NCBI GenBank assembly: GCA_016845065.1
Contig: JAERTG010000080.1
Coordinates: 1 to 36,809, forward strand
Length of the DNA: 36,809 nt
From: Fidelibacterota bacterium
GTDB taxonomy: Bacteria; Fidelibacterota; UBA8477; JABMPR01
Reading direction: 5' to 3'
The notes under the pieces are model-generated. The model was given only the letters and a program-made list of their open reading frames with translations. It was not told the DNA's origin and made no database searches. This document shows positions 27,413 through 36,809 of the stretch, piece after piece. Position 1 is the stretch's first letter, and every line of letters starts with the position of its first letter. The position numbers and the translations under genes were made by a program.

Positions 27413-28030
27413 ATGAATACTGGTTCAAAAAATACTGGTTTAAGCCGCAAGGAAAGAGATAAACTGCGCAACAAGGAAGCTATCTTGAAAGCTGCGGTGC
27501 ATCTATTTGCCCAGAAGGGATTTGTGGAAACGAAACTCGAGGATGTTGCTGCATTGGCAGAATTCGGTAAAGGCACCCTATATAATTATTTTAAGAACAA
27601 GGATGATCTGCTTCTTTCTGCCTTTGATTACGCAGTGGGAAATGTCCTGGATTTCTTATACGATCAATTGGCTTCAGTCTCTGATCCCCTTGATCGGATT
27701 CGTCTCATCGCCAATTCTCAGTTTAATTATTATCACAATAATACTGATTTCATGAATGTGATCATGACGAATCAACAGGTTTTGATGAATCATGCTAGAA
27801 GTAGACAAGTGTTTGATCGTTTTCAGGATTTGAAAAAATTAGTAGTCATTGAAATGCAGGCTGCCATTGATGCAGGTCATTTGCGTCAGGGGAACGCCCA
27901 ACATTATGCCAGCTATCTGAGTGGGATGATTCATGCCCAGGTTCGTTCATTGAATGCAGGGGACATGAAGATGGATGAAATGTATGCTGATGATATAATG
28001 GATATCTTTTTAAATGGAGCTAAATCATGA
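27413..28030 (+). CDS. TetR/AcrR-family transcriptional regulator
   Basis: A 205-residue regulator. The N-terminal helix-turn-helix is clear: NKEAILKAAVHLFAQKGF, then TKLEDVAALAEFGKGTLYNYFKNKDDLL (about residues 21-67). The C-terminal helical ligand-binding domain is variable and gives no ligand. AGGAG lies 8 nt before the ATG. The stop overlaps the TolC-family start as ATGA, so it is the first gene of the four-gene efflux operon and probably its local repressor. Confidence 0.93.
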   Translation: MNTGSKNTGLSRKERDKLRNKEAILKAAVHLFAQKGFVETKLEDVAALAEFGKGTLYNYFKNKDDLLLSAFDYAVGNVLDFLYDQLASVSDPLDRIRLIANSQFNYYHNNTDFMNVIMTNQQVLMNHARSRQVFDRFQDLKKLVVIEMQAAIDAGHLRQGNAQHYASYLSGMIHAQVRSLNAGDMKMDEMYADDIMDIFLNGAKS

Positions 28031-29469
28031 ATAAAAATTTGCTGACAGTGGTAGTCAGCCTCATGTTGATTAACTCAGTGGGGGCAGAAACCCTGGAGCT
28101 TGAGCTTAGCAAGGCTATCAAGCTCGCTCTGGATAACAATGTGAACATGCAAAATGCCCAGGAGGATCTCCTTCAGGCAAAAGCACAAAGGAAAGAAGCT
28201 TTTTCATCAGCTTTGCCTGTGGTTTCTGGCTTTGGTCAAGTCTCCCATAGCTTTGCTATTGGCGCTCAACCTATGGCGTTTCCTGTACCGTTTGGTGTTG
28301 TTGACAATAATGGAGATCCACTCCATTATCTATCCAACCCAATGGATCCAACAAGCACTGTGGAGTACTATGATCAAATGGGCAATCAAGTTGGACATCT
28401 ACAACAAACTGCAATTCGAATGATACCACTTGAGCTCGCTTTTGGATCGGATAATACCATGGTCTACGGTCTTAGCCTGACACAACCCTTGTTTGAAGGT
28501 CGTGTTATTGCTGCCATCAGAGGGGCAAACGTTTATGGGGATCTTGCCACATCTGCAGCTGATGTTACCAGACTCTCGGTTATCGAGAATACTAAGAAAG
28601 CCTATTATGGAGTTTTGCTGGCTGACAAAATGGTTGAAGTCATGCAGAATTCACTTGAAGTGATGAAACAGAACCTGGAGAATGTCACAGCACTTTATGA
28701 GCAGGGAAAAACTGCAGAATTCGATGTGATCCGTGCTGATGTTCAGGTAGCCAACCAAACCACCATGGTGAGTAATGCCCGCAAAATGAAAGAATTGGCT
28801 TATGCTGGATTAAAGCGTAGCTGTGGGCTACAGATTGAGCAGGATCTGGTAATCCAGGGTGAGCTTCGAACTGAAATTGTTGATGACCTTAACCTGGCTG
28901 ATTTAGAGCGTAAGATGATCTCAAATCAACCTCTTTTAAACCAGTTGGAAGCCAATGTGAAACTCATGAAGGAGAACATCCTCATGGTGAAGGCCGAATT
29001 TATGCCTTCAATTGCGCTAACTGGCTCCTACCAGCAGATGAAGTCCTACAATGATGATGGTTTCGACGATGCGGACTTTAATGAATCCTCCTCCTTGGCA
29101 ATAGGTATCAATATGCCCATTTTTAATGGATTTGGATCCACTGCAAGAGTACAAAAAGCTAGAGCTGATCACCGGAAATCTGAGTACCAACAGCATGATA
29201 TGAAGGAAAATCTACTGCTGGAACTGAAGAGTATTTTTCTGAGTATTAAGGAATCCTCACGGAAAATTGATGCTGGACTCAAAGGTGCAGAACAAGCTCA
29301 CAAGGGAGTCGATATGGCTCAAAAACTTTATCAACAGGGCATGGCCAGCCAACTTCAGGTTTTAGATGCCCAAAGCGCTAGTGACCAAGCTGAACTAGGT
29401 CTCTACCAGGCATATTTTGAATATAACAGTGCTCGTGCTTCATTGGCACGTGCCCTCGGAGAAGAATAA
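28027..29469 (+). CDS. TolC-family outer-membrane efflux protein
   Basis: A 480-residue protein with a signal peptide (MNKNLLTVVVSLMLINSVGA). Two structural repeats of long helices begin LELSKAIKLALDNNVNMQNA (about 25-45) and again after residue 290; the closing GMASQLQVLDAQSASDQAEL motif is characteristic of the family. An extended insert (about residues 75-140) sits in the first beta-strand region. It forms the outer-membrane channel for the RND pump encoded two genes downstream. Its start overlaps the TetR gene and its stop overlaps the membrane-fusion gene. Confidence 0.92.
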   Translation: MNKNLLTVVVSLMLINSVGAETLELELSKAIKLALDNNVNMQNAQEDLLQAKAQRKEAFSSALPVVSGFGQVSHSFAIGAQPMAFPVPFGVVDNNGDPLHYLSNPMDPTSTVEYYDQMGNQVGHLQQTAIRMIPLELAFGSDNTMVYGLSLTQPLFEGRVIAAIRGANVYGDLATSAADVTRLSVIENTKKAYYGVLLADKMVEVMQNSLEVMKQNLENVTALYEQGKTAEFDVIRADVQVANQTTMVSNARKMKELAYAGLKRSCGLQIEQDLVIQGELRTEIVDDLNLADLERKMISNQPLLNQLEANVKLMKENILMVKAEFMPSIALTGSYQQMKSYNDDGFDDADFNESSSLAIGINMPIFNGFGSTARVQKARADHRKSEYQQHDMKENLLLELKSIFLSIKESSRKIDAGLKGAEQAHKGVDMAQKLYQQGMASQLQVLDAQSASDQAELGLYQAYFEYNSARASLARALGEE

Positions 29470-30518
29470 TGAAATCGATGAAAACATGGGTAGCAACGCT
29501 ACTACTAATCTCAAGTATACTGGTCCTGGCCAATTGTGGTGGTGAGACTGAAGTCAAAGAAATTGTTGAAACAAAAGTGCCTGTTGCTCTGGATAGTGTA
29601 AGCTTTCAACCCTTCCAGGTTGATTTTCATAGTATTGGTAGAGTTGTATCAGAGAACCAAGTGAATTTACTATTTCAATCTGCCGGACAGGTTGATTCAA
29701 TCTGGGCTAATATTGGCGACTATGTATTCAAGGACCAGCGTCTTGCCAGTATTGAGACCGATGTGTATTCAACCATGTATGCCCAGGCAAAATCTATGTA
29801 TGAGAAATCCAAACGCGATTTAGAAAGCTCGAAAGCTCTCTTTAATTCAAATGTGATTTCATCTGATCAATTTGAAATGGCCCGTATTGGTCTGGACAAC
29901 GCCAGAGCAGCTTACACGCAAGCGAAAAACTCAATGGATAATACAACTCTTCGTGCACCCTTCAGTGGATGGATTGTGGCTAAAAATTTAAATATCGGTG
30001 ATCTCGTAGCTCCAGGGGGAGCTATGCAGCCACCTATGGTGCTGGCTGATATGAATCGCTTGAAAATTATTGTGCCGGTACCGGAGGCTCGCATCGGGCA
30101 GATCAGAAATGGTCAGTTTGCCCAAATTGAATTTAAAACCTTCCCTGATCGCATATTTGAAGGTGCGGTACTCCGTATTGGTATGGCTCCTAAAAACATG
30201 TCCAACAATTATGATGTTGAAGTACGCATGTCAGGCAACATGATGGGCATGAAGCTGGGTCTGGTGGGTGATGTTCGCATTGTGCAGGAATACTATGAAG
30301 AAGCCTTGGTATTACCCCTCAACCTGATACAGGATGACGGACAGAAGAAATTTATTTTCCTTGAGGAAGCGGGTCGTGCAGTGCAAAAAGAGATCAACAT
30401 TCGAGCACTTTCAGGATCACAGGTATTCATCGAAGCAGATGTTGTCCCAGGTGATAGGATCATCGTTAAAGGACACAATGATGTGAAAGATGGTTCTCTT
30501 TTGGATATCGTGGAGTAG
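29469..30518 (+). CDS. RND efflux membrane-fusion lipoprotein (HlyD/AcrA family)
   Basis: A 349-residue periplasmic adaptor. The N-terminus is a lipoprotein signal, with Cys23 in LVLANC the likely lipidation site. The biotinyl-lipoyl-like halves flank a helical hairpin of about 60 residues (around 95-155: MYAQAKSMYEKSKRDLESSK onward), followed by TTLRAPFSGWIVAKNLNIGD. Beta-barrel and membrane-proximal domains complete it. It connects the RND pump to the TolC-like channel. The ATG shares one base with the preceding stop. Confidence 0.93.
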   Translation: MKSMKTWVATLLLISSILVLANCGGETEVKEIVETKVPVALDSVSFQPFQVDFHSIGRVVSENQVNLLFQSAGQVDSIWANIGDYVFKDQRLASIETDVYSTMYAQAKSMYEKSKRDLESSKALFNSNVISSDQFEMARIGLDNARAAYTQAKNSMDNTTLRAPFSGWIVAKNLNIGDLVAPGGAMQPPMVLADMNRLKIIVPVPEARIGQIRNGQFAQIEFKTFPDRIFEGAVLRIGMAPKNMSNNYDVEVRMSGNMMGMKLGLVGDVRIVQEYYEEALVLPLNLIQDDGQKKFIFLEEAGRAVQKEINIRALSGSQVFIEADVVPGDRIIVKGHNDVKDGSLLDIVE

Positions 30519-30533
30519 GGAAGGGATTACCTT

Positions 30534-33500
30534 ATGAAAATATCAAAACAGGCCATCCAGCACCCCATGGCTGTCATGTTTGCATCTCTGGGTATTTTTA
30601 TTGCCAGCATCACAGCCTACGTGTCACTGCCCCTTGAGCTGGTCCCAGTCATTGAAATTCCATATGCTTTCGTCTCTGCCACCTATGTGGGAGCTGCCCC
30701 TTCCGAGGTAGAGACAGAGATTATCAAACCCATTGAAGAGAAACTGGCCCAACTGCAAGATGTAGATGATATCACTGGATATGCCATGCAGAATGTTGGT
30801 TTTATAACCATCAAATTTTCTCCGGAAGCAGATCTTGATTTAAGTATCGATGATCTCAAGGAGAAGGTGAACGAAGCCATACCTGAACTCCGAGATGAGA
30901 TAGATAATGTTACTGTGACCGATATCGATTTCGCAGATACACCCATTAGTATTCTCAATATCTATGGTGACTTCTCACCTCATGACCTGCGTATCCAGGC
31001 TGATCTCATTAAAGATCAGCTAACCCGAGTATCTGGCGTGAACCAGGTTGAAATGTTTGGTGGCGAAGAACGTGAGATCGCCATTGAAATTGATCCAGAT
31101 CTGCTCCTTGCCAATAACCTCAGTATCCCACAGGTATTGATGGCTCTGCGAAGAAGCAATATGAATTTTCCCGGTGGAACTGTGAAGTTGAAAGGCCAGG
31201 ATATCTTTGTGCGAACTGTGGGCAAGTACTCTGAAATCGATGATATCGAGAACACCATTCTCGGTGTAGATCAATCGGGAAATGTCAGTCGCATTCGTGA
31301 TGTAGGGACAGTCACCGATGGATTCGAAATCCCTTCGAGTTATTCCCGGTATCAACAACAGAATAGTGTAACTCTGCTGATTTCAAAAAGAACAGGTTCA
31401 CATATCGTCGAAGCCACTGAGCAAATCGAGGCAGTGGTGGACAAACTCGCTGCAAAATTCCCTCAGGGAATGGAATATGCCTATACAGCTAGACAGGCAA
31501 CGGATATTGAGAAACAAAATAGTCAGCTGAATCAGAATGCAGCATGGGGAATCTTGTTTGTCATTATTGTATTGTTTGCGGGAATTGGGTTCAAGAATGC
31601 TCTCATCGTATCTATTGCACTGCCTTTTGCACTTATGTCCTCCTTTCCTCTCATGGCTGTATTTGACCTGGCGCGGACAGGTATTTCCATGTTTGGCCTC
31701 ATCATCGTGCTTGGAATTGTGGTTGACGGTGCCATCATTGTCGCAGAATCAACCTATAGACACATGGAAGAAGGTCTGAGCCGGAAAGATGCTGCCATTC
31801 AGGCTCTTGATGAAGTCGGTGTTCCCATTATGACTTCGGTGTTGACAACTATGGTCGCGTTTGCACCCATCATTTACATGTCTGGAACCATGGGGCAATT
31901 TCTCTCAGTTATCCCAAAAGTGGTCATTTTCACACTGGTAGGTGCCTTCCTGGCCGATCATTTTTTGATTCCTGTGTTGGCCTCAAAAATGATGATGGTC
32001 ACCAAGCGGGCTGGGATGCTCAGCGGCGAGTGGATAGGTAAACGAGTATACACAAAAATGGTTGGATGGGCTTTATACCATCGATTCCTGGTTATTCTGG
32101 GGATTACAGTTGTTTTCTTTATGTCAATTGCCGCCGTGGGAATTTCTGCAGTCAGTGATACCAAGCTTGTCAAATTGGAAATATTCCCCAAAGTTGCTAA
32201 ACCCAGGATTATTCTGGACATCAACACTCCTGCAGGGAGCCAACTGGAATATACAGATTCTGTAGTCAAGGAGGTTGAAGAATACCTCGTTGGCTTTGAA
32301 GAGGTTGACCGAATTGTTTCTACAGTCGGAGAGAGCGGCGTTCAAAATGTTCGCCTTGCGCAAGGGGGTGGCAAGGGCGCCGAAATTGGACAAATAAATG
32401 TAGATCTGGTTGATGCAAGCGAGCGGGATATTTCTGTGGATGATCTCATGGTCATCATGGATGCTGAGCTCTCCCGGATACCTGGTGTCGATATCGTACT
32501 CCAAACCATTGTCGAAGGTCCACCCATAGCCAGCAATGTGATCATTGATGTCAGTGGTGACGATTTGGATGCCATAGGTTTTGTAGCCGAACAGGTCAAA
32601 CGAGATCTGGCAACCGTGGAAGGTGCCTTGAATGTTGAATCCAGCCTTGGTGTGCGAAGAACTGAATTTCAAGCTATCGTCGATCATGATCGCGCTGCAA
32701 GTTATGGTCTATCCAGTCAGGAAGTGAGTAACACTCTTGCTGCCGCCATGATTGGTTTGGAAGCTACAACCTATTCTGACGGTCTTGAGGATATTCCAGT
32801 TGTGGTACGTCTTGAAACAGATGGTGACGATGCCGTAGATGCTATCCGTAATCTGAACATTATGAATCAAATGGGTCAGATGATCCCCTTTGAGAATGTC
32901 GCATCACTTGAGTTGGGAAGCAGTGAAACTCTGATTAAACACCAGGATTTCAAACGCAATATTTCTGTTTCATGTGATTTGGCGAAGGGCGTGGATGCAA
33001 CGGATATTCGACGTCGTATGGATCCCTTTCTGGCTCAACTGGCTGTACCAAATGGTGTCTCAGTTGAGTATGGAGGTATTGAAGACGAGGCCAGCGAATC
33101 ATTCGCAAGCCTTGGTAGAGCCATGATTATCGGGTTTATTATTATCATGATCATCCTCAGTGCCCAATTTCAATCATTTAAGCAACCTCTGATTATTGGC
33201 CTCGCTATTCCACTTTCATTTATTGGGGTGATTTTTGGTCTCATGGTAACAAGAGTACCATTTGGGATCATGGCCTTTTTCGGAGTCGTCGCGCTTATGG
33301 GGGTGGTGGTGAATGATGCTATTGTGCTCATCGCCTATGTCAATGACCTCAGACGAAAAGGAATGTTGGTCCGGGATGCCTTGATCAAGGCAGGTCGCAA
33401 CAGACTGAGGCCCATCATCCTCACCACAGTGACTACGCTGGCAGGTATGATACCTCTGAGCTTGAATCTGGCAGGTGGGGCTGAATACTGGAGACCTCTG

Positions 33501-33620
33501 GCAGTTAGTCTGATCTTTGGTTTGGCGGTTTCTTCCTTCTTGACTCTCATTGTTGTTCCAGTTTTATATTCGATTATCGAGAGCCGAGCAGAGCGGAAAA
33601 AATTGGAACGCGCTGCTTAA
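30534..33620 (+). CDS. RND-family efflux transporter, inner-membrane pump (AcrB/MMPL superfamily)
   Basis: A 1028-residue protein with the classic duplicated layout: TM1 near residues 11-30, a large periplasmic loop, TM2-6 (about 335-470), a second periplasmic loop and TM8-12 (about 860-1020). The proton-relay region in TM4 reads GIVVDGAIIVAES, keeping one Asp where AcrB has a pair; TM10 reads VVVNDAIVLI. Both variants occur in non-AcrB branches. GRNRLRPIILTT is the conserved motif after TM10. AGGGAAGGGAT precedes the ATG. Substrates cannot be predicted; with TetR, TolC and MFP it makes a complete tripartite pump. Confidence 0.94.
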   Translation: MKISKQAIQHPMAVMFASLGIFIASITAYVSLPLELVPVIEIPYAFVSATYVGAAPSEVETEIIKPIEEKLAQLQDVDDITGYAMQNVGFITIKFSPEADLDLSIDDLKEKVNEAIPELRDEIDNVTVTDIDFADTPISILNIYGDFSPHDLRIQADLIKDQLTRVSGVNQVEMFGGEEREIAIEIDPDLLLANNLSIPQVLMALRRSNMNFPGGTVKLKGQDIFVRTVGKYSEIDDIENTILGVDQSGNVSRIRDVGTVTDGFEIPSSYSRYQQQNSVTLLISKRTGSHIVEATEQIEAVVDKLAAKFPQGMEYAYTARQATDIEKQNSQLNQNAAWGILFVIIVLFAGIGFKNALIVSIALPFALMSSFPLMAVFDLARTGISMFGLIIVLGIVVDGAIIVAESTYRHMEEGLSRKDAAIQALDEVGVPIMTSVLTTMVAFAPIIYMSGTMGQFLSVIPKVVIFTLVGAFLADHFLIPVLASKMMMVTKRAGMLSGEWIGKRVYTKMVGWALYHRFLVILGITVVFFMSIAAVGISAVSDTKLVKLEIFPKVAKPRIILDINTPAGSQLEYTDSVVKEVEEYLVGFEEVDRIVSTVGESGVQNVRLAQGGGKGAEIGQINVDLVDASERDISVDDLMVIMDAELSRIPGVDIVLQTIVEGPPIASNVIIDVSGDDLDAIGFVAEQVKRDLATVEGALNVESSLGVRRTEFQAIVDHDRAASYGLSSQEVSNTLAAAMIGLEATTYSDGLEDIPVVVRLETDGDDAVDAIRNLNIMNQMGQMIPFENVASLELGSSETLIKHQDFKRNISVSCDLAKGVDATDIRRRMDPFLAQLAVPNGVSVEYGGIEDEASESFASLGRAMIIGFIIIMIILSAQFQSFKQPLIIGLAIPLSFIGVIFGLMVTRVPFGIMAFFGVVALMGVVVNDAIVLIAYVNDLRRKGMLVRDALIKAGRNRLRPIILTTVTTLAGMIPLSLNLAGGAEYWRPLAVSLIFGLAVSSFLTLIVVPVLYSIIESRAERKKLERAA

Positions 33621-33660
33621 CGAATCCGCCAGGGTTTATCAATATATTAAATTTGTTTTA

Positions 33661-33692
33661 CAAAGGGCTTTGTGATAGCACAAAGCCCTTTG
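33661..33692 (+). terminator. Long hairpin after the efflux operon, terminator-like
   Basis: A 14-bp perfect stem (CAAAGGGCTTTGTG with CACAAAGCCCTTTG, loop ATAG) lies 40 nt after the RND stop. The following bases, CTTATATA, are not a proper T-run, so termination may be factor-assisted or incomplete. Confidence 0.6.
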
Positions 33693-33752
33693 CTTATATA
33701 TCTTAATCAATATTTTTCTTAAGCAGTCGTATTAAACAACCGTGGAGAGATT

Positions 33753-36374
33753 ATGATTAAGAACAAACTATCCAGCATTTTGATGGTGTTGCTGGCCCTA
33801 TTTGCCCTGGGACATACTGCTGAAAGGCTAGTCCTGGCTGAATATTTTACCAACGCTGGCTGACCTGGTTGTGGCCCCGCAGGGGCAGAGTTGGACGTGT
33901 TCCAACATAATAATCAGGAAGCCTTCACTTCAATTCATTACCACATGTCCTGGCCCGGTAGTGATCCTTTCTATAGCTATAATAGTGCAGATGGGAATGC
34001 TCGTAGAGCTCATTACGGTTTTAATTGGGTCCCTTATTTTGTAGTAGATGGTGGTGATCATTCTGCGCTGAATGAGAATCAGGATGTTTCGCAATGGGGT
34101 GCAGCGGTACTTGCACAAGCTGCTTTAACATCACCACTCTCTATTTCGGCAACCGGTGACATGAATTATCAGGGAGAGGGTTACATTGATGTAACACTAA
34201 CTCCTGAAGCCGGTGTCGATGGTGATTATATCATCCAGGTGGTTTTGGTTGAAGATGGCATTTACTTCATGGGCTCAAATGGTTACCCAAATCATGAAGC
34301 TGTCATGCGACACATGTTCCCTACTCCTGAAGGTACACCAATCAGTTTACAGGCTGGGGTAGAGGTAACAGAAACCATCAGTGTAGAAATAACTCAGGGT
34401 TTTAACGTTGCCAATTGCCGACTTGTCGTATTTGTTGAAGCTGCGGATCAATCAATTCTAAATACTGCTACCTTTAATCTGGTTGAGCTAACCCCTGTAA
34501 ATGTTCCTTATCTACAGACAGTTTCTGGATCCATCCAGGTGATTGACGAAAATGATGATGGCAAACTGAACCCCGGCGAGTCAACAAATTATGCAGTGAC
34601 CATTACAAATCTTTGCGAATGGTCCACTGCCACTGGAATTACGGGATACCTTTCCAGCTCAGACCCATATGTTACAATTACCGATAGTGTTGGGAGTTAT
34701 GACCTGCTCGTAGCCTGTGATATGGGCGCCAATAATGCTGATATGTTTGCTTTTAGCGTGTCTGAAGATGCCCCTGTGATATATGATATGGAGTTTAGCC
34801 TGCGCTTAACGGCAAACCAGGATGGTGAGGTACCATATGAAACCACACTACCCTTGAGTGTAACCATGGATATGTTCCAGAACCATTTTCCTGTAGCAAC
34901 TTTGGATGGTATTGTCGGTGGATCTGCAGTCTTAGATCTTGATGGAGATGCATCACTCGAGGTTATAGTTGGTGGTCTTGATAGTCTTCTGCATGTGTTT
35001 GGTGTAGATGGATTGGATATAGATGGTTTCCCATTTGTCTCAACTGGCAAAATTACCTCAGCACCTGCGGTTGGAGATATCGACAATGACGGTGACCTGG
35101 AAATCGTATTTACAACACTCGGTGGTGGGATCTATGTGGTAGAATCTGATGGAAGCGGTGCAATGGTTGCTCAGGCTACTGGTCAAATCTTGGGTACCTC
35201 TGCCATCGCAGACCTGGATAATGATGGTGATTTAGAAATTGTTACTACTGGTACCGCTTATGACATCACTGTAATCCATCACGATGGGACCGCTCTTGCA
35301 GGTTACCCAAAAATTCTTGATGGCGAGAGGATGGAGGGAGCAGCCGCAATTGCTGATTTGGATGGTGATGGTTTTAACGACATCATCGTTGGTACCAATG
35401 GAGACTTTATTCATGCCTATGATGCCAGTGGAAATAGTCTAGCAGGTTTTCCGGTTAATCTAGCTGCTGATATCAGGACTGCACCTGTTGTCACAGATCT
35501 GACAGGAGATGGTACCCTGGAGATTATTGCTGGTTCACTCAGTGGGACGATGCACGCTCTATCAAGTTCGGGTACTGTGTTGTGGAGTCATCAACAGGTT
35601 CCAATCCCAGTTTTATCCGGTCATTCTGTTTTTGATTACAACCAGGATGGTCTCATGGAAACTGCTTATGTATTGCCTGACGGACGTGTCAGTGTAATAG
35701 ACCACGCAGGAAACATGATGGAAGGCTGGCCACAAACTCTGGCGACCACTTGTTACAGTCAACCCGTTATCGGCGATGTCGATGGTGATGATATTCCAGA
35801 AATCATACTGGGGGATGACTCCGATGTTCTGTATGCATTTCATATAGATGGAACACTCCTGCCCCATTATCCAATGGCACAGGGAGAAAGAGTCCATGCT
35901 GCTGCTACTGTGGCTGATTTGGATCTTGATGGCAATATGGAGATTCTTGTTGGAACCGATGCTGGGCTCAATGTGGTTGATATGCCTGCATTAAGTGAAG
36001 CCGGACCCTTTTGGGTAACCTCACGTGGGAATTATCAGCGGACTGGATATTTCCCCAATAATATTGTGAGTTCTTATTCACAATCGATTCTACCTGAAAC
36101 GTTGACTTTAAAGCAGAATTTCCCAAATCCCTTTAACCCCACTACTACCATTGAATTTGGGATTCCTGGCTCTTCGATGACAAATCTCACGATCTTCGAC
36201 CTTTTGGGAAATGAAGTAACCCGTCTGATCGATAAAAATCTTTCTGCTGGTAACTATTCGCTAGTCTGGCAGGGAGTAGATCATTCAGGAAATCAGGTTG
36301 CTGCAGGTGTATACTTTGCTCGCATCAAATCTGGTGGTGAAGAACAACTCATAAAAATGATGCTATTGAAATAA
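33753..36374 (+). CDS. Predicted exported selenoprotein: Omp28/thioredoxin-like domain, FG-GAP propeller and T9SS sorting domain
   Basis: An 873-residue protein when the in-frame TGA at codon 37 is read as selenocysteine. ATG 33753 follows a strong GGAGAGATT ribosome site. Layout: signal peptide (about 1-23, ending GHTA); a thioredoxin-like redox site U37-P-G-C40 preceded by LAEYFTNAG, as in Omp28-related proteins where Cys is usual; the rest of the Omp28-like domain to about 245, including NWVPYFVVDGG; a beta-sandwich domain (about 255-370); eight FG-GAP/VCBS-type repeats with acidic loops such as DIDNDGDLEIV and DLDGDGFNDIIVG (about 378-766); and a T9SS type A sorting domain (780-873) with NFPNPFNPTTT. 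It should be exported by Sec and then T9SS. The redox partner is unknown. A standard caller would begin at 33891 and lose the signal peptide and active site. A tandem paralogue follows. Confidence 0.88.
33861..33863 (+). other. In-frame UGA, predicted selenocysteine codon 37
   Basis: TGA sits at codon 37 of an otherwise open 874-codon frame, exactly where the first Cys of a CxxC-type redox motif is expected (U-P-G-C). The frame is preceded by a good ribosome site and a signal peptide and continues through recognisable domains. The paralogue at 36586 has TGA at the same codon. TGA is an ordinary stop elsewhere in the window, so general reassignment is excluded. Confidence 0.9.
33864..33906 (+). 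promoter_or_regulatory. Candidate bacterial SECIS element of the first selenoprotein gene
   Basis: Two hairpins lie just after the UGA: GCCCC/GGGGC (33874-33878 with 33882-33886, loop GCA) and GTTGGA/TCCAAC (33890-33895 with 33901-33906, loop CGTGT). The second has a perfect 6-bp stem, a G in the second loop position, and its loop starts 32 nt after the UGA, inside the range known for bacterial SECIS elements. Which stem SelB would use needs folding. Alternative pairings such as CCTG with CAGG are possible. Confidence 0.65.
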
Positions 36375-36394
36375 ACCATTACGTATTACTCAAT

Positions 36395-36423
36395 AAAAAG
36401 GTCATCCATCGGATGGCCTTTTT
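36395..36423 (+). terminator. Rho-independent terminator after the first selenoprotein gene
   Basis: A 13-bp stem (AAAAAGGTCATCC with GGATGGCCTTTTT, one G-T pair, loop ATC) ends in five T. The paralogous gene that follows therefore needs its own promoter, which I could not identify with confidence in 36424-36585. Confidence 0.9.
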
Positions 36424-36585
36424 ATTGTCACGTTTGATCCAGTTCCCGCTCATTTTTTAATTCCTAAATTAATTTTTACTAACGTTTCTTTCACGACCTG
36501 CTTTGTGGTGGCACAGACCCCATCGATCATATATGTTATGCGATGCTTTACTTAGGCATTTAATAGAATTCAATTTGGAGAGATT

Positions 36586-36809
36586 ATGATCAAAAACAGA
36601 TCCGCAAGCGTAGTGATGATACTGCTTGCGCTATTCGCATTGGGGCATACTGCCGAAAGGTTGGTTTTAACAGAATATTTTACCAACGCTGGCTGACCTG
36701 GTTGTGGCCCAACAGGGGCTCAGTTGGACGTGTTCCAACAAAACAACCCAGGAATGTTCACCCAGATTTCTTACCACGTAAGTTGGCCTGGTACAGACCC
36801 ATATTATAG
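36586..36809 (+). CDS. Second predicted Omp28/thioredoxin-like selenoprotein (partial, runs off the window)
   Basis: ATG 36586 follows TTTGGAGAGATT, the same ribosome-site context as the first gene. The first 74 codons are visible and are open except for TGA at codon 37. The protein is closely similar to the first: signal peptide (MIKNRSASVVMILLALFALG), then LTEYFTNAG-U-P-G-C-G, then AQLDVFQQNN and ISYHVSWPGTDPYY. The catalytic motif is again U37-P-G-C40. It continues beyond the right edge, so it is unknown whether it also carries a propeller and a T9SS domain. The two genes are a tandem duplication that has diverged at many synonymous sites but not around the UGA. Because of the TGA and the window edge it would normally escape annotation. 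Confidence 0.85.
36694..36696 (+). other. In-frame UGA, predicted selenocysteine codon 37 of the second copy
   Basis: TGA at codon 37, the same codon number and alignment position as in the first gene, within the same U-P-G-C motif. The 38 bases around it are identical to copy 1. Confidence 0.88.
36697..36739 (+). promoter_or_regulatory. Candidate bacterial SECIS element of the second selenoprotein gene
   Basis: The hairpin GTTGGA/TCCAAC (36723-36728 with 36734-36739, loop CGTGT) is unchanged from copy 1 and at the same distance from the UGA. The nearer stem is retained as GCCC/GGGC (36707-36710 with 36716-36719) although its loop bases differ. Confidence 0.65.

Follow-up and report, generated by a model that had tools for sequence, protein, structure and literature searches.

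Omp28-related selenoproteins are an already described kind of bacterial protein. The 'Hypothetical protein GOS_C' of Zhang and Gladyshev (2008, PMC2398784) appears with a UxxC motif as NF045500 in Table 1 of a 2026 review (PMC13188914), and the NCBIfam name of this family is 'Omp28-related selenoprotein'. NF045500 loci read EDFTGLN-U-PYC, with selenocysteine (Sec, U) as the first residue of UxxC in an Omp28/thioredoxin-like domain. HBP35 of Porphyromonas gingivalis (PDB 5y1a), a 344-residue protein that lacks a propeller and has Cys at both positions of its redox pair (C48/C51), binds hemin, and an hbp35 plasmid complemented an Escherichia coli dsbA mutant (PMC2907840). Omp28 of the same species (PDB 2r2c; PF11551) is an outer membrane lipoprotein according to its depositors. 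Here we describe a gene on a 36,809-nucleotide contig of a Fidelibacterota bacterium (JAERTG010000080.1, assembly GCA_016845065.1; the whole stretch is called the window below) whose reading frame is interrupted by a UGA at codon 37. With a probability of about 0.8, we propose that Sec is inserted at this UGA, as the first active-site residue of an Omp28-type domain with a thioredoxin fold, and that the 873-residue protein is exported through a signal peptide and a type IX tail and acts as a thiol-disulfide redox protein at the cell surface. If so, these bacteria would carry selenocysteine on substrates of type IX secretion, beyond the cell envelope.

The window protein shares with NF045500 the Omp28/thioredoxin-like domain and Sec at the same site, but differs from it in score, size and hairpin position. 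It scores 26.8 bits where 200 are required and so is not a member by score (a short relative, P0003, reaches 63.3 bits); matches over the cut-off occur in 24 of 245 genomes of the phylum, all outside the window's order. Most of the listed NF045500 frames that pass the cut-off span ~350-440 residues and some 545-611, as against ~870 with a propeller here, and the loop of the likely selenocysteine insertion sequence (SECIS) starts 19 nucleotides (nt) past the UGA there and 32 nt here. Three NF045500 frames over the cut-off reach 700-1177 residues, and at least one member, L168, carries a type IX sorting tail as well (39.1 bits, cut-off 27), which makes it uncertain that tails of this type, or large size, are specific to the present clade. 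The window protein combines a thioredoxin/Omp28 domain, an FG-GAP propeller and a type IX tail, with a likely SECIS farther from the UGA. The hypothetical protein Atu2684 / AGR_C_4864 (PDB 2axo), which we take to be DUF1223-like, differs in being of the Cys type and 270 residues long. In the library searched, no paper contained 'selenoprotein' together with 'Omp28' or the phrase 'Omp28-related selenoprotein'; Haft and Tolstoy (2025) may describe such proteins. 'Omp28' and 'selenocysteine' co-occurred in one paper, judged by its title to concern Helicobacter pylori strains. 'Type IX secretion' occurred in one paper with 'selenoprotein' and in one with 'selenocysteine', and to judge by title and opening of the abstract neither deals with the combination.

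Apart from the single TGA, the frame is open throughout: an ATG behind a ribosome site, the TGA at codon 37 and then 836 codons, as stated by a reading made from the letters of the window alone (the sequence-only reading), up to a TAA at 36372-36374. The site reads ...LAEYFTNAG-U-PGCGPAG..., Sec being the first residue of U-P-G-C. The first 246 residues match 47 places in 20 of the 23 genomes of the order. Nineteen of these have no stop inside and 28, in 17 genomes, contain a TGA, which is the sole stop in 27; in the remaining one (L133, contig C58 of genome G014) a TAG follows ~58 codons past the UGA, which may be decay, error or another story. The TGA falls in the codon-37 column of the alignment in 28/28 TGA-bearing copies, and the four no-stop relatives aligned there (L139, L140, L141, L151) have TGT. 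A broader selection of 113 loci from the phylum, hand-picked from search listings and including eleven that repeat a gene already counted, shows TGA in 82, TGT in 22, TGC in 8 and a gap in 1. Homologues thus carry Cys at the Sec site: 112 of the 113 loci have one of these three codons, and with U written as C, position 37 and Cys40 are invariant in 30/30 and 61/61 aligned rows, as the sequence-only reading had anticipated. Several short Sec-type paralogues also exist in the order (P0003 at L149:1492-2424, L135, L136, L138 and L148), with 270-274 codons after the UGA; a dockerin-like repeat at the end of P0003 scores weakly (PF00404, 19.9 bits, below the cut-off of 22.9).

The genome itself (93% complete) encodes the full set of selenocysteine genes that the same reading had named. 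SelA, SelB and SelD all exceed their profile cut-offs, and a tRNA-Sec scores 72 bits, with the anticodon TCA by ARAGORN; the SelD contains a TGA of its own, in AAGUAGK. ARAGORN found no tRNA within the window, selC lying on another contig. Among 14 control genomes, the cut-offs for tRNA-Sec, SelB, SelA and SelD were passed in 5, 2, 1 and 2, respectively. Across the order, 21/23 genomes have selB over cut-off (all but G003 and G017) and 21/23 have tRNA-Sec (all but G002 and G004), each of the 23 having one or both. Together with the Cys alignment and a covarying hairpin that the sequence-only reading had not mentioned, these genes support its selenoprotein claim, and UGA 37 very likely encodes selenocysteine. 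In the proposed mechanism, SelA, SelD and tRNA-Sec would supply Sec-tRNA, which SelB, bound to a hairpin downstream through a loop guanine, would bring to the UGA; where Sec is not inserted, translation would end with a 36-residue product. The redox pair would consist of Sec37 and Cys40, in place of C48 and C51 of HBP35.

The architecture of the protein suggests where this pair would act. The U-P-G-C motif sits, in the structural model, in a thioredoxin-like part N-terminal to the Pfam Omp28 match (PF11551, 68.1 bits, above the gathering cut-off of 34.9), which is limited to residues 85-242. This refines the Omp28/thioredoxin-like label given by the sequence-only reading. The profile match to Omp28 of P. 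gingivalis (profile 109-246) begins past the redox motif. Because the PDB matches of the full-length model were apparently dominated by propeller-type structures, the thioredoxin/Omp28 domain was modelled alone; it is predicted to have the same fold as HBP35, with the redox pairs aligned and Sec37 matched to the catalytic C48. An all-beta domain follows, which we read as immunoglobulin-like although no family match names it, and then a beta-propeller supported by PF13517 (83.9 bits) and PF01839 (43.9 bits), both over cut-off, and by propellers among the PDB matches of the full-length model. These two domains may hold or recruit partners. The C-terminal sorting domain (TIGR04183, 33.1 bits, cut-off 23; FlgD_ig, 34.0 bits, cut-off 27) would be recognised by type IX machinery, and the genome encodes a PorU-family sortase (682.8 bits, cut-off 420), the one component by which that machinery was scored. 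Of the protein's 123 matches in its own genome, most fall on this C-terminal tail, suggesting that type IX substrates are very numerous there. A selenoprotein could instead act inside the periplasm, for instance by isomerising disulfides in exported proteins, in keeping with the DsbA- and DsbG-like selenoproteins on the review's list (PMC13188914) and with the dsbA complementation by hbp35. This is unlikely for a protein whose sorting domain is over cut-off, whose tail is common to many open reading frames (ORFs) of the genome, and whose genome encodes a PorU-family sortase.

Surface display aside, Sec insertion calls for a SECIS, and in the 60 nt from the UGA, aligned for 28 sequences (27 distinct), two hairpins are predicted. 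All six pairs of the second, hairpin 2 (columns 30-35 with 41-46), form in 27/27 distinct sequences, and four of the six change on both sides, for example from G-C to C-G or from U-A to C-G. Its loop begins 32 nt past the UGA, with the G at loop position 2 invariant in 28/28 rows. When synonymous codons were drawn by local usage (2000 draws), the complete hairpin formed in 4.5 sequences on average and never in more than 12, compared with the 27/27 observed; the pairs formed averaged 123 and did not exceed 140, against 162/162 observed. In four Cys-type relatives tested, 2-4 of the six pairs form. The published bacterial SECIS (bSECIS) model asks for a loop of 3-9 nt, a stem of 4-16 base pairs (bp), a G in the first two loop positions, a spacing of 16-37 nt and a minimum free energy of -7.5 kcal/mol or lower (PMC13188914); hairpin 2 lies within its geometry (loop 5, stem 6, G at position 2, spacing 32) and is the likely SECIS of UGA 37. 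It is improbable that SelB binds hairpin 1 instead. Hairpin 1 is closer to the UGA, and the best consensus-type loop lies at 16-20 nt in 45 of the 46 Sec rows that fall outside this clade in the tree described below (the remaining row has none). Its loop, however, starts 15 nt past the UGA, its loop G is unconserved and its pairs are broken in some rows, in contrast to the invariant loop G and complete pairing of hairpin 2. An Rfam scan of the window gave no match above gathering scores.

Several observations weigh against the proposed Sec insertion and surface role. Hairpin 2 alone, in this copy, folds at -5.4 kcal/mol, short of the model limit. Counted from the first base of the UGA, nt 4-48 fold only moderately better than their synonymous shuffles do (27 rows, mean z -1.85), and in this copy 14 of 200 shuffles are at least as stable. 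Among the sorting profiles, PF18962 reaches 26.1 bits, slightly short of its cut-off of 27. The genome also carries a TGT-type relative (L211), and such a Cys form can serve related needs. Finally, no TGA copy occurs in 6 of the 23 order genomes, although all six have selB or tRNA-Sec above the cut-off; the Sec trait is therefore not maintained by this protein there. As regards the energies, wider folds of this copy reach -16.2 kcal/mol (nt 4-48) and -25.0 kcal/mol (57 nt after the UGA), and the limit of -7.5 discriminates poorly when applied to bare hairpins: 21/73 Sec rows and 0/27 Cys rows pass it, and the two distributions overlap (weakest Sec -2.8, strongest Cys -3.3 kcal/mol).

Very improbable is that the TGA is an ordinary stop, left by a pseudogene or a sequencing error, with a downstream ORF read from an internal start. 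The standard code does yield an ORF from 33891, with a TTG start, the relative in G014 has a further internal TAG, and the databases hold such shortened versions: of 186 hits in a protein search, the 41 best-scoring (P0004-P0044) were examined, and 41/41 start past the UGA without the U-P-G-C motif. Against this stand the identical TGA in 28/28 TGA-bearing order copies and in other phylum groups, the covarying hairpin, and the Cys of relatives that lack the TGA. A tandem copy in the window has a TGA at its own codon 37, which, with the 28 order copies sharing one column, makes the TGA more than chance. In six pairwise comparisons, codons 1-36 differ synonymously at 13-16 codons and nonsynonymously at 4-7; this mostly synonymous change argues that the stretch before the TGA is translated and selected as protein. 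The in-frame UGA has coding constraint on both sides. Sequencing error or pseudogene was rejected on the single shared column. That UGA is read as another amino acid such as Trp, or by general read-through, has a negligible probability: the frame would stay open whatever the residue, but 4 of the 24 window ORFs tallied end in TGA, the 30 non-TGA, non-gap loci have Cys and never Trp (on which two grounds Trp recoding was rejected), 27/28 copies contain one TGA and no further stop in the part searched, and a tRNA-Sec with a TCA anticodon is present.

The sequence-only reading had predicted a truncated entry starting at 33891 with neither export signal nor active site. The truncation and both losses were found, with the start elsewhere: the entry for the window protein (P0004, 809 residues) begins at Met65, position 33945. 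Large predicted surface selenoproteins thus appear in the examined records as headless fragments, and because the export signal and active site are gone, their redox role is invisible to annotation.

Exchange between Sec and Cys at this site appears to have been repeated. A tree was built from 100 rows of the 113 loci (73 Sec, 27 Cys) with the Sec site masked; the 13 loci outside it comprise the eleven repeats, the short second copy of the window and the locus whose Sec site is a gap. It requires at least 7 Sec/Cys changes, or 5 without eight long-branched or odd rows, and gives no direction of change. A single common Sec clade is rejected by the approximately unbiased (AU) test (p 8.7e-7), with long branches in play, two of which (L233, L223) meet. 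The 27 Sec rows of the window's clade group together (98/89), and their neighbour is the Cys-type L151 (100/98). In 26 of these 27 rows the best consensus-type hairpin loop lies 32-33 nt from the UGA, L131 having a stronger one at 25; any candidate hairpin is found in 12/27 Cys rows, the best at -3.3 kcal/mol. The scan admits consensus-type hairpins only, so fit to the consensus is there by construction. Tree and hairpin positions together fit either repeated gain or relocation of the SECIS. Our tentative scenario, to which we give slightly less than even odds, is that Sec was installed several separate times at one Omp28-type thioredoxin site in the phylum, each time with a new SECIS elsewhere (32 versus 16-20 nt), this clade leading to a giant propeller-bearing type IX surface selenoprotein. 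Because the catalytic site stays fixed while the hairpins differ in position, these repeated Sec/Cys exchanges offer a natural series on SECIS gain and loss within coding sequence. Further TGA-type Omp28-like groups of the phylum (L239-L245 and L229-L236) lie apart from both this clade and NF045500 in the tree and have hairpin positions of their own.

Table 1. Features of the predicted selenoprotein gene and its tandem copy in the window.
Feature	Position	Strand	Basis or remarks
Shine-Dalgarno-like GGAGAG	33744..33749	+	sequence read; GGAGA kept in six relatives compared
Coding sequence, predicted selenoprotein, 873 residues, Sec at 37	33753..36374	+	frame and order-wide conservation
Likely N-terminal signal peptide, residues 1-22	33753..33818	+	hydrophobic stretch by eye; helix 2-20 in model
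Thioredoxin-like and Omp28 beta domain, residues 23-246	33819..34490	+	
UGA codon 37, predicted selenocysteine	33861..33863	+	frame, alignment, wider phylum loci
Hairpin 1 (5 bp), conserved less strictly	33874..33886	+	91.9% of cells paired, 27 distinct rows
Hairpin 2, likely SECIS: 6-bp stem, loop CGUGU, invariant G at loop position 2	33890..33906	+	
All-beta domain, residues ~254-372	34512..34868	+	strands in full-length model; 10-residue means of the predicted local distance difference test (pLDDT) 80-96
FG-GAP/VCBS beta-propeller, residues ~385-750	34905..36002	+	profiles and full-length model
C-terminal type IX secretion sorting domain, residues 785-873	36105..36371	+	profiles
Second tandem copy, first 74 codons, cut by contig end	36586..36808	+	TGA (its own codon 37) at 36694-36696
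SECIS-like hairpin of second copy, identical sequence GUUGGACGUGUUCCAAC	36723..36739	+	

The second copy probably continues on another contig, C145, whose start holds a 497-residue frame with 90-91% identity over 365 residues to the copies in two relatives (L147, L144) and would, from this likeness, be its 3' rest. A search of a plasmid collection gave no match. Upstream, at 27413-33620, lie genes for a TetR regulator and TolC-type, HlyD-type and AcrB-type efflux proteins, and in a relative (G011) ORFs of nearly equal sizes stand in the same order ahead of the tandem pair. A promoter scan of 33500-36809 gave 3 sites, below the shuffles (mean 7.2), and none immediately ahead of either copy. Between the AcrB-type gene and the selenoprotein gene is a 14-pair terminator-like repeat (33661-33692), and the two may therefore well be separate units. 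A shorter repeat (36395-36424) lies between the tandem copies; the scan reported it on the minus strand only (36415-36403), while by eye the plus strand also runs into T.
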